Source: Candidatus Gastranaerophilales bacterium
GTDB taxonomy: Bacteria; Cyanobacteriota; Vampirovibrionia; Gastranaerophilales; Gastranaerophilaceae
DNA: 64,000 nucleotides
Reading direction: 5' to 3'
NCBI GenBank assembly: GCA_944325705.1
Contig: CALVBB010000002.1
Span: 1 to 64,000 of the forward strand
Positions 20,986-53,216 of this stretch are shown in pieces. The translations under genes and the position numbers were made by a program. The notes beneath the pieces were generated by a model, which saw only the letters and a list, made by a program, of their open reading frames with translations, searched no databases and was not told the DNA's origin. Position 1 is the first letter of the stretch. Each line of letters opens with the position of its first letter.

Positions 20986-22059
20986 TTATTGGAGATTTTT
21001 CCAGTAATCTTTATCTGTCAGGGCTTTGTAAGTGCACCCGACCCCGTTTTGATTAGAGGTGTTTGTCAGCGAACAGTATTTTGACATATCTGTGTAACTT
21101 GTTCCTTCTGCACCTACCGGAAGAAGCTTGCCTGAATCTGTTAACTGAAATGTAAAAAGATCGTATCCCCATCGATTCGGCCTTTTTTGAACTCCGTTTA
21201 CATCCACGGTTATCAAAATAGGGTATACTGTTGAACCGTCACCCATGGCGCTTTCCAGTAAAAATAAGGTGCCGTCAGTTGTAATAAATTGTCCGTCATC
21301 CAACCAGTTCGGTATAACACTATTTTTTGCATTAAATGTTATATATGGATTTTTCGCATTTTCATTTCCTGTAATTGAACCGTTTTCTATGCAGGAACCT
21401 TTTTCTGTTCCCTCGCCGCAATCCTGTGCATTTTTTATGTATTTTATCAGAAGTTTCTTTAACGGCGAACCCTTTGTTACTCCTTTTACTTTTTGATAAT
21501 TTGCCGGTTTTACAACCTCTCCAGTATCAAGCTGTGCTCTCAAAAGTGCCTGCTGCAGGACTGTGTAATTCTTCTTCAGCCCTGTTTGCAGTTCCTGATG
21601 CTGTGTTTTATTAATAAGTGCAGGCAGTGTCATCGCAGCAACAACCCCGATAATTCCGAGGGTGATTAAGACCTCAGCCAGAGTGAAAGCGGATTTTCGC
21701 AAGGGTGCCGAGTGAGCGATAGCGAACCCAGCCCGTAAGGTGTCGGAAAACCACGCTTTTCCGACATCCCGAATAATCCGGATAGCGGCTCTTTGATAAG
21801 TGAAGGGTGAAGAGTGAGGAGTGAAGTGTTCAACTAATTCCCTACCACCGCGGTATACAAAGGGAACCGCTGAGCCCTGCGAAGCTTGTGCCCTGTATGC
21901 CTTGTGCCGAGAGTGCCGGAGGCGGGAGAGGGGGGGGGCGGTAAAGTTGAACGGTTGACAAGTTGAAGGGTTAAAGAATTTAAGATTAGACATGCCATTC
22001 TGAAACGGTAATCGCTTAGGCTCGCATGAGTTGTCACTGTTCAGAAGCTCTTTATTCAC
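20986..22059 (-). CDS. Prepilin-like protein with unusually long leader and C9 tract (in frame)
   Basis: 357 residues from GTG 22059, or 335 from an internal ATG at 21993 (MSNLKFF), which resembles the starts of the two other tract-bearing pilins. The prepilin signal RKSA-FTLAEVLITLGIIG begins at residue 121, with Glu at +5 and Ala rather than Gly at -1. The mature part has the family marks: INKTQHQELQTGLKKNYT helix, ITVDVNGVQKRPNRWGYDLF and a C-terminal Cys pair (YCSLT...GVGC). The leader of 100-124 residues is encoded by repeat-like DNA: a C9 run (21930-21938), GTGAAGAGTGA-type repeats and a perfect hairpin. The frame is open, so this gene would be ON. Confidence 0.75.
   Translation of the reverse strand: MNKELLNSDNSCEPKRLPFQNGMSNLKFFNPSTCQPFNFTAPPLSRLRHSRHKAYRAQASQGSAVPFVYRGGRELVEHFTPHSSPFTYQRAAIRIIRDVGKAWFSDTLRAGFAIAHSAPLRKSAFTLAEVLITLGIIGVVAAMTLPALINKTQHQELQTGLKKNYTVLQQALLRAQLDTGEVVKPANYQKVKGVTKGSPLKKLLIKYIKNAQDCGEGTEKGSCIENGSITGNENAKNPYITFNAKNSVIPNWLDDGQFITTDGTLFLLESAMGDGSTVYPILITVDVNGVQKRPNRWGYDLFTFQLTDSGKLLPVGAEGTSYTDMSKYCSLTNTSNQNGVGCTYKALTDKDYWKNLQ
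21741..21766. repeat. Perfect hairpin inside the prepilin leader
   Basis: TGTCGGAAAA and TTTTCCGACA are a perfect 10-bp inverted repeat around a 6-nt loop, within the leader-coding part of the prepilin at 20986-22059. It resembles an intergenic palindrome that has become coding. Confidence 0.75.
21797..21828. repeat. Degenerate GTGAAGAGTGA-type tandem repeat
   Basis: About three imperfect copies of (A)GTGARGRGTGA. A similar run (GTGAAGAGTGATGTGTGACG) occurs at 56247-56266 in an intergenic spacer, so this is a dispersed low-complexity repeat. Here it is translated within the prepilin leader. Confidence 0.55.
21930..21938 (-). repeat. Homopolymer G9/C9 tract in prepilin leader
   Basis: Nine G on the plus strand, nine C in the coding strand, within the leader of the prepilin at 20986-22059. 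Loss or gain of one base would uncouple the start from the pilin. In the present sequence the frame is open. Confidence 0.8.
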
Positions 22060-26490: not shown

Positions 26491-27460
26491 ATGGAAAATA
26501 CAGTAAAATCAAGGTTTTTCGGGGGGGGGGGCAAGTAGTTTAAGCTCCTTAACCGGCACAGAGCAAGGGATACAGGCAGCCGAGAGAGGCAAAGCCTTTA
26601 GTTTGTGTACATTTTTGCAGCGTCTGATTAAGAGAAAATCTCTCCTGCCGCCCTGTCTTGGATTTGCTCTACGCTCGGAAAGTTTCGCTTATGAACCTAC
26701 GGTTCAACACCGCTCAATTTCCTCGCAATCCGGATTTGTTCGCTTCGCTCACACGGCGCCCTGCCGAAAATCCGCTTTTACATTGGCAGAAGTTCTTATC
26801 ACTCTCGGGATTATCGGCGTGGTTGCGGCGATGACACTGCCGGCGCTTGTCGGAAATTATCGTAAAAAGCAGGTGGAAGTTAAACTTAAACGCTTCTATA
26901 GTGTATTTAATAATGCTTTAATTCGTTCGGAAGCAGACAACGAACAGATGCAGTTCTGGGAATGGCCTGAGAACTCCTATAAAGATGAGGATGGTGAGAT
27001 TATTCAAACCGGTTCAATTTCGGATTATGAGTGGTTTGAAAAATATTTGAAGCCTTATTTTAATATAAAAGATGTTAATCAGAGTTTTCACCTTTATTGT
27101 GTTTGGTATGATGGTTTTGCTATAAAGATGACAGATGGAACAGGGGTTGCATGCGGTATTTATGAGGGTCGCTCTTTTGGGGATAAAACCTATCCGTTTG
27201 TCTGCATGTTTTTTCCGGAATCAAAGAATATTGATAATGTTAGAGATTATAACACAAAGTCACAAAGTTTAATTTCAGGAAAAGACTATTTTATATTTCA
27301 ATTATTTAATGGAATAAACGGGAAAAAAGGCTTACAGGCTATAGATAGTGATGAATGTACCGGCGAAAAGGGTTTTAAAAACCTTCCTTCTATAGGCTGT
27401 GTAAAGAAAATTATTGAAAATAACTGGGAAATTCCGGACGATTATCCGGTAAAATTTTAG
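26491..27460 (+). CDS. Poly-G phase-variable prepilin (OFF in this sequence)
   Basis: ATG 26491 has a strong AAAAGGAG 8 nt upstream and the promoter described above. With the 11 G present the frame reads MENTVKSRFFGGGGK and stops. With 10 G (or 13) it runs without a stop into the pilin and to 27460, giving 322 residues. The pilin part has CRKSA-FTLAEVLITLGIIG (F at 26777, leader 95 residues, Ala at -1, Glu at +5), the KKQVEVKLKRFYSVFNN helix and a C-terminal Cys pair (DECTGEKG...IGC). A TTG at 26603 could start a shorter product but lacks a ribosome site. The role as a secreted minor pilin is inferred from the family. Confidence 0.78.
26521..26531 (+). repeat. G11 tract, switch of prepilin at 26491
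   Basis: Eleven G directly after TTTTTC and before CAAGTAGTTTAAGCTCC. The tract lies in codons 11-14 of the leader. One G fewer joins start and pilin. Confidence 0.9.
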
Positions 27461-50958: not shown

Positions 50959-51928
50959 ATGTTTAAAGTTATTAGCCAAAATTTTGCGTATAAAAAAGTT
51001 TCAATCTTTGGTATAAAGCTTTCGTTTATAACACCGGAATACAAAGAATTAAAAAAACTTTTCAGGAAGGTAATTGTAAGGGATTTTGGAAATAATAACA
51101 GGGTTATTTTGACCGGTAGTCCTTGTGTAGAGCCGATTTCGGGGGGGGGGGGACGCTGACTCTCTAAGGATTTCGTTTTTCGGGGATAACAATACGATTG
51201 TCATAGCACGCTCTGCAAAACTTTCCGGCCTGATTAATATATTCGGTGAGAATAATAGTATTTCATTTAGCCAGTTATCTCAATTTTCTTCAGGCATTTA
51301 TATCGGTAAAAAGGATGATTTAGTTAGAAGTAGTAATTTATGTTTTGGTGAGGGATGTAAGATTTTAAATTCTAATGTAGATATAGTATCAGGTTTTAAT
51401 CAAGTATTAAATATAGGAAATAATTCTCAATTAAATTCAGTTTATATTGAACAGTCAGGTAAATCAGAAGTCCATATCGGGAATAATGTATCTTTTTTTA
51501 TTAAAAGTCAAATTAGAATTGGATGGCAATCAGAGCTAAATATTGGAGATAACACTACAATTAATGAAATATTTATAAATACGGCAATGAATTCTAAAAT
51601 AAATATAGGTGAAGATTGTATGTTTTCCTGGAAAGTGGTTTTATTCCCCGATGATTGTCATCCTATTATGGATAAAGAAACAGGTAAGCTTATTAATTCT
51701 CATAATAACAATAATATCCATATTGGAAAGCACTGCTGGATCGGGTATGGAGTTACATTGCTCAAAAATGTAACTATTCCTGATAATTCTATTGTCGGAA
51801 TGAATTCTTTTGTAATTAATAAACAGTTTGATGAGCAGAATGTTATAATTGCCGGTTCTCCCGCTAAAGTTATTAAGCGTAATATCGACTGGGATAGGGA
51901 TTACGCAAGTTTAGGCAGAAAAACTTAA
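50959..51928 (+). CDS. Poly-G phase-variable left-handed beta-helix acyltransferase (OFF)
   Basis: From ATG 50959 the frame ends at 51159 after GGGGR because of a G12 tract. With 11 G (or 14) it stays open to 51928, giving 322 residues. The downstream part is a clear hexapeptide-repeat acyltransferase: LNIGDNTTIN, INIGEDCMFSW, IHIGKHCWIGYGVTLLKNV and NVIIAGSPAKVIKRNIDWDRD, like O-acetyltransferases of surface polysaccharides (WbbJ/Vat type). The N-terminal part before the tract already has strand-like segments (RDFGNNNRVILTGS). Calling 51587-51928 as an independent gene would remove half the helix and leave no ribosome site. Confidence 0.8.
51141..51152 (+). repeat. G12 tract, switch of the acyltransferase
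   Basis: Twelve G after AGAGCCGATTTC and before ACGCTGACTCTCTAAG. The 5' flank is identical over 12 nt to that of the tract at 52381. One G fewer opens the frame. Confidence 0.92.
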
Positions 51929-52350: not shown

Positions 52351-53216
52351 ATGTTGAAATTCACTAATAGAGCCGATTTCGGGGGGGGGGGCAACGTACT
52401 CTAAGCTCTCTTTCGTTGTTTCGGGCAGGTAGTTCAGATTATTTTTTAGGAAGTATTAATATTGCACGCTGCGGGTTTACTCTTGCGGAGGTGCTGATTA
52501 CTCTTGGAATTATAGGTATTGTTGCAGCTCTTACAATGCCGACCTTAATTCAAAAAAATCAGGATAAGGAACTTATTTCAAGAACAAAGGCGGTTTATTC
52601 GACAATACAGAACGCTGTATTGAAATCCCAATCTGACTATGGAGTTATAGGAGATAATTCCCTGCTGTTTAGCCCGAATAATACAAGTAGCCAGACAGCA
52701 GAGGCTTTTGCTAAATATTTCAACGGAGCACGGGTTTGTAAATCTAAAACTGATAAAGGCTGCAGTACTTATTACTACAAAGTTAAATTCGGCTCATTAC
52801 GTTTATCTTCTGATAATAGCGGTGCTGCAGATGAGATGGGCTCATGGCCTAAAATTTTATTAAGTAACGGGGCTATTCTTGCAATACTCCAGTATAATAA
52901 TCCGGATTGTTATGCTCCAACAACAATAAATGTTACCGATGAATACGGCAGACCTCTAAAAAATCCGGACGGTACAAACCAGACTAAAATCTGGCATAAT
53001 AGACGCTGTGCAGTCGTTCGTTTTGATGTAAACGGCATTAAAAATCCAAATCAGTTAGGCAGAGATGTTTATTCAGTAGCTGTTATGAAAGATGGCAAGG
53101 TAAAAGCTGATGATACTTCTGTTACATTCGGCGGAAAGAGTCTTAACAATATTTTGACAGGTAAAGAAGAACTCCAGTACACCAATTACTCCTCCGGTCA
53201 GAAATATGACTTTTAA
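52351..53216 (+). CDS. Poly-G phase-variable prepilin, second locus (OFF)
   Basis: ATG 52351 has AAAGGAG 9 nt upstream; an ATG at 52342 is in frame but too close to it. With the 11 G present the frame ends at MLKFTNRADFGGGGNVL. With 12 or 9 G it stays open to 53216, 288 or 287 residues. The prepilin signal is RCG-FTLAEVLITLGIIG (F at 52476; leader 42 residues in the 12-G state; Gly at -1, Glu at +5). The mature part has KELISRTKAVYSTIQNAVLKS and FDVNGIKNPNQLGRDVYSV. It lacks the terminal Cys pair and ends in YTNYSSGQKYDF. A TTG at 52416 would be an alternative start without a ribosome site. Confidence 0.8.
52381..52391 (+). repeat. G11 tract, switch of prepilin at 52351
   Basis: Eleven G after AGAGCCGATTTC and before CAACGTACTCTAAGCTC. 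Adding one G (or losing two) joins start and pilin. Confidence 0.92.

Follow-up and report, generated by a model that had tools for sequence, protein, structure and literature searches.

Dozens of surface genes in a Gastranaerophilales bacterium appear to be switched on and off by copying slips in poly-G tracts

As read from its DNA, this Candidatus Gastranaerophilales bacterium seems to turn dozens of its surface genes on or off through random slips in the copying of poly-G tracts. The reading that we prefer, at a probability of about 85%, is slipped-strand phase variation of the classical kind, unusually large in extent and focused on the leader that is cleaved from prepilins. The genome (G000; 1.95 Mb in 44 contigs) contains 67 tracts of nine or more G. 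In the window, by which we mean the whole stretch of 64,000 nucleotides analysed here, 11 overlapping matches to G9 were found, with 0.03 expected in shuffles of the 64 kb. New here are the size of the set, its concentration in prepilin leaders and a leader module shared between genes; an open-literature search returned no publication on phase variation in Gastranaerophilales or Melainabacteria.

The window encodes a hexapeptide (left-handed β-helix) O-acetyltransferase on the forward strand (50,959–51,928), the frame of which is broken in the assembly at about codons 61–64 by a forward-strand tract of 12 G (51,141–51,152; off state, one G above the open frame). The tract lies inside the open reading frame and is far above chance in length. 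It had been noticed from the sequence alone that G12 breaks this frame and that G11 would restore 322 residues, and a frame test over tract lengths bears this out. The ORF from 50,959 ends after 66 amino acids with G12 and runs to 322 with G11; with G9, G10 or G13 it also stops within 69 amino acids. A single phase modulo 3 gives a long intact protein, and the others end early. The 3′ flank of the tract, ACGCTGACTCTCTAAG (51,153–51,168, forward strand), carries the off-frame stops TGA and TAA right behind it. The part of the protein behind the tract matches Pfam Hexapep (3e-6), and the best relative of known structure in a sequence search is the polysialic acid O-acetyltransferase OatWY (PDB 2wlc, E 1.2e-25), a distant relation with which it would share the acetylation of a surface glycan. 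The repeats and the similarity to solved members place the protein among the hexapeptide O-acetyltransferases. An AlphaFold model calculated from the single sequence, without an alignment, had a pLDDT of 59 and gave no useful fold match; since this model is poor, the identity was taken from the OatWY sequence match.

On the same strand lies a type IV pilin-like prepilin gene with a long leader (FTLAEVLITLGIIG; 52,351–53,216), which has a G11 tract in that leader (52,381–52,391, forward strand). The sequence-only reading had placed this tract correctly; what required correction is that the pilin gene is out of frame too, and needs G12. Set to G12, it encodes 291 amino acids and reads ...CGFTLAEVLITLGIIGIV. 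An N_methyl motif is found at the site, together with a peptidase-type site (G/A-FTLAEV) and a hydrophobic helix, as in type IV-type prepilins, and the orthologue in a sister species (G012, contig CASFGU010000025.1) has G12, is in frame and matches Pfam N_methyl at 5.9e-5. At 45 amino acids the leader is unusually long. Leaders of up to about 215 amino acids, unlike the usual short ones, occur among the tract pilins of both species (e.g. L185, L213), and these long leaders share repeated segments between genes, such as KSPLPHFIKGG. A third tract in the window, beyond the pair first described, is a G11 run (26,521–26,531, forward strand) in the leader of a second prepilin gene (26,491–27,460, end approximate, forward strand); the leader, MENTVKSRFF-Gly-, belongs to group A (see below), and the gene is off, with its open frame at G10. 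A G9 run at 21,930–21,938 lies in a GC-rich, apparently non-coding stretch.

Genome-wide, 40 of the 67 tracts are followed on the same strand, within less than 900 nt, by an N_methyl prepilin motif, for which the chance is about 3% per tract; 40 of the 131 prepilin sites carry a tract. The type IV-type pilin repertoire is very large even without tracts, with about 130 prepilin-like N_methyl motifs in 1.95 Mb, most of them above the Pfam cut-off. Prepilin tracts usually start 8–13 codons past the ATG. A Shine-Dalgarno sequence precedes the ATG upstream of the tract in 48 of 50 tract pilins, and an alternative ATG with such a sequence is present downstream of the tract in 3 of the 50. Some tracts lie outside any clear gene. 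In the sample of the order, counts range from 0 to 176 tracts per genome in 124 genomes of the family and from 0 to 6 in other families; genomes assembled in about 10 contigs are among those with high counts.

The leaders follow a common layout of an ATG, about ten codons, the G run and immediate off-frame stops. They fall into related groups, namely group A (MENAVIARIF-Gly-ASSLSSLTG), group B (MQNTTIASKL-Gly-) and group C (..RADF-Gly-QRTLSSL, the window type). Modules of the leader type also head GT17 (L054, L208) and GT61 (L169) genes and a second hexapeptide acyltransferase (L161); the GT17 gene has a group-A-like leader in both species. Besides these, tracts, internal or in the leader, occur in GT6, AlgX-like, GT-D-like, FkbM methyltransferase and PIG-L deacetylase genes. 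In five group-A leaders (L319, L323, L328, L338 and L342) the G run is broken by A or T and the gene is locked out of frame; in L319 and L342 at least, the prepilin frame downstream is open for at least 270 codons despite the interruption.

The tracts are kept between related genomes, and their lengths vary. The sister species shows the two window genes in unchanged order and with an identical 13 nt flank, the acetyltransferase at G11 (off; on at G12) and the pilin at G12 (on). The acetyltransferase of a third species (G003), which is 38% identical and lies in the same neighbourhood, has a G12 tract in frame at the homologous codon. At E ≤ 1e-35 the acetyltransferase was found in only 3 of 383 family genomes and has the tract in all three, in the states G12 off, G11 off and G12 on. 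Between G000 and G012, 23 reciprocal orthologous tracts could be compared, the flanking DNA being 75–95% identical; the length differs in 18 of the 23 and the state in 12, as judged from one consensus genome per species and from draft assemblies in which homopolymer lengths may be off by one. Non-pilin switches include GT17 (G11 on, G12 off), GT6 (G14 off, G13 on) and an AlgX-like gene (G11 off, G12 on). The phase switch proposed from the window is well supported comparatively, by the kept tract, the differing lengths and states, and the 67 tracts of the genome. A genome of another genus (G130) shows the same architecture with an unrelated leader sequence, and in G115, a further genome, it is other genes that carry the tracts.

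We propose that the acetyltransferase tract is a contingency locus. The poly-G would gain or lose single Gs at replication by slipped-strand mispairing, such that the acetyltransferase would be made only at an in-frame length, and at the off-frame stops right behind the tract translation in either of the other two frames would terminate after only a few codons. This locus would belong to a set of poly-G switches found across the genome, mostly about ten codons past prepilin starts. In the prepilins the tract would fall inside the leader that prepilin peptidase is predicted to remove, so that the mature pilin would stay the same whenever a change in length preserves the frame. The unit of leader, tract and stops appears to have spread among prepilins by gene duplication and recombination, and also to have become the 5′ end of several unrelated genes with a putative role in surface glycans.

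The 5′ flank of the acetyltransferase tract, AGAGCCGATTTC (51,129–51,140), is common to the prepilin leader, where it occupies 52,369–52,380, both on the forward strand. The 12 identical nucleotides first reported ahead of the two tracts prove to be 13 when the preceding T is counted (TAGAGCCGATTTC). The likeness noted between the 3′ flanks is also real, and clearer in the sister species, where the acetyltransferase reads Gn-CAACGCTGAGCCTCTAAG and the pilin Gn-CAACGTACTCTAAG. A search of lineage genomes for the flank followed by poly-G, which had been suggested as a check, found AGAGCCnATTTC-G7 with at most one mismatch in 16 of 383 family genomes and 7 genera, against one genome for the reversed-pattern control. 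Where a gene could be read, the occurrences are mostly in prepilin leaders. The other carriers are the acetyltransferase, the GT61 gene of the sister species (L169), which reads IEPISGGG in the same frame as the VEPISGGG of the acetyltransferase, and a GT2-like gene that has the motif in its interior (G038, L300). We therefore regard the flank as part of the prepilin leader module, used also by other genes. A pattern scan of public genomes returned the sister species and one unrelated GC-rich match with G7 (L007), and nothing else. In viral contigs, three leader/tract patterns had no match and the acetyltransferase had no relative, and a viral origin or carriage by phage was rejected on these grounds.

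It had been suggested that tract and flanks together form a transferable switch cassette. In the strict sense this would be a mobile unit of about 35 bp (flank-Gn-flank) inserting itself into unrelated genes, which would suit the identical 13 nt flank in non-homologous genes of one window and the flank-like motif with poly-G in the GT61 gene and within the GT2-like gene. The G003 orthologue speaks against it: the tract lies at the same codon, no trace of the 13 nt flank is seen and the spacing is nearly equal, so that the comparison of filled and empty sites gives no net insertion. Neither terminal repeats nor duplicated target sites were noticed next to either copy in the window, the motif is in no viral contig, and recombination between existing tracts or 5′ ends accounts for the sharing. 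Such a self-inserting unit is unlikely, and the sequence comparison does not support a cassette insertion in the acetyltransferase gene. The transferable aspect of the suggestion is supported in part, in that the flank recurs in several genera and leader modules head unrelated genes; a portable 5′ module is supported. Since the G003 tract lacks the flank, tract and flank have separate histories, and the same codon, missing flank and near-equal spacing point to a local exchange of the flank (gene conversion) rather than to insertion. In our model of slipped-strand switching, the acetyltransferase would have had its tract before it acquired the shared flank. Recombination at the poly-G probably brought this flank in as a copy from a pilin leader, perhaps the one 1.2 kb away.

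The states of the pilin tracts are unevenly distributed. Among the 50 tract pilins of G000 and G012, 37 have one G too many, nine have one too few and four are in frame, which leaves 46 out of frame; among the non-pilin tracts 13 of 22 are in frame. The one-too-many state is found with G11 and with G12, and it persists with G10 where an extra base at the tract edge stands in for a G. The off-frame stop lies a median of 3 codons behind the tract, against 9 at control positions (p 4e-16, over leader copies that are not independent), and in many leaders it follows the tract directly. The preserved state, the immediate stop and the excess of one off state over the other (p 4e-5) would all suit programmed ribosomal or transcriptional slippage at the G run, acting instead of or besides slippage of the DNA, by which genes with one G too many would be expressed at a low level through a shift on GGG codons, aided by the stop behind the tract. 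However, the non-pilin tracts are mostly in frame, orthologues differ in state, locked interrupted tracts occur in both off frames, and the bias is also expected from selection for off pilins combined with contraction-prone long G-runs. We consider such a mechanism quite unlikely. The skew is not given by random switching alone. Long G-runs tend to contract rather than expand, and under slipped-strand phase variation the skew would reflect selection keeping most pilins off together with this shortening tendency.

The frames could also be simply broken or miscalled, in decaying pseudogenes or through assembly errors. The predominance of out-of-frame pilin tracts, the existence of some leader copies without a long ORF or with interrupted tracts, and the fact that homopolymers can be misjudged in short-read assemblies would agree with this explanation, which is nevertheless very improbable and already largely contradicted. 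The frames downstream of the tract stay open over 200–400 codons, the acetyltransferase tract sits at the homologous codon in orthologues of 38% identity, in-frame versions exist in related species, and high tract counts run through the family, the genomes of about 10 contigs included, with near zero in the other families of the order. A chance or convergent likeness between the flanks of the acetyltransferase tract and those of the pilin tract is scarcely credible: the 3′ flanks do share features that may be selected (off-frame stops), but the 5′ flanks agree at 13 of 13 positions against a best of 10 of 13 among 3,693 short G-runs of the same DNA, the motif recurs over 7 genera with a near-empty reversed control, and the 13-mer is read in one frame by the acetyltransferase (EPIS) and in another by the pilin (RADF). 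As sources of the shared flank, chance and simple insertion were either rejected or downgraded, on the control flanks, the recurrence of the motif and the G003 comparison.

The present set is unusual, since switch sets of this size are known chiefly in pathogens. It would be among the largest poly-G switch sets reported and is carried by many members of one family, and its design is evident, with the switch in the leader to be cleaved and the stops just behind. Slightly better than even odds may be given to a wider claim, namely that this family, probably gut-associated and non-pathogenic, holds a library of dozens to more than 100 poly-G-switched genes, with at its core a portable prepilin leader that unrelated genes for glycan modification have captured, and that most of its pilins are silent one slip from expression, so that cells sample few at a time. 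Annotations of the lineage may list many prepilins and glycan enzymes as truncated genes or pseudogenes.

Campylobacter jejuni NCTC11168 has 29 phase-variable loci with poly-G/C of seven or more (PMC4965091). As in that species, the tracts are intragenic, the on or off state depends on frame and many surface-modifying genes are involved; unlike there, 67 tracts of nine or more are found in a genome of less than 2 Mb, concentrated in prepilin leaders, with shared flanks and in another lineage. In Neisseria, the mean number of poly-G tracts of nine or more per genome is 15.4 in the meningococcus and 18.2 in the gonococcus, with 39 and 54 phase-variable genes, respectively (PMC5953494). The Neisseria phasomes resemble the present set as multi-locus SSR phase variation that includes pilin-modifying and glycan genes, whereas here roughly four times as many poly-G tracts pass this cut-off, and the lineage is not known to be pathogenic. 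In Bifidobacterium breve, G-tracts are present in two sortase-dependent pilus loci, at which replication slippage has been measured (Penno et al. 2022, PMC9187656). This case is similar in concerning a gut commensal, as the present bacterium probably is, in having a G-tract that separates the signal part from the pilin body, and in the off state, which is that of the B. breve parent strain; it differs in its sortase pili and two loci, in contrast with the type IV-type prepilins, dozens of loci and shared leader module described here.

Some further arrangements were seen outside the window. A poly-G tract in the sister species lies in a gene that by eye resembles a phage tail protein, with no Pfam match behind the tract (L160, G012:C7:12307-15316). 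Two similar adjacent genes in G115 (L258, G115:C4:60500-64000) have G10 and G9 at the same codon and are both out of frame. One stretch of the sister genome (L202, G012:C47:37666-45621) carries three poly-G tracts, their hosts being a hexapeptide and ATP-grasp protein, a short ORF and a protein with a C-terminal PIG-L deacetylase domain.
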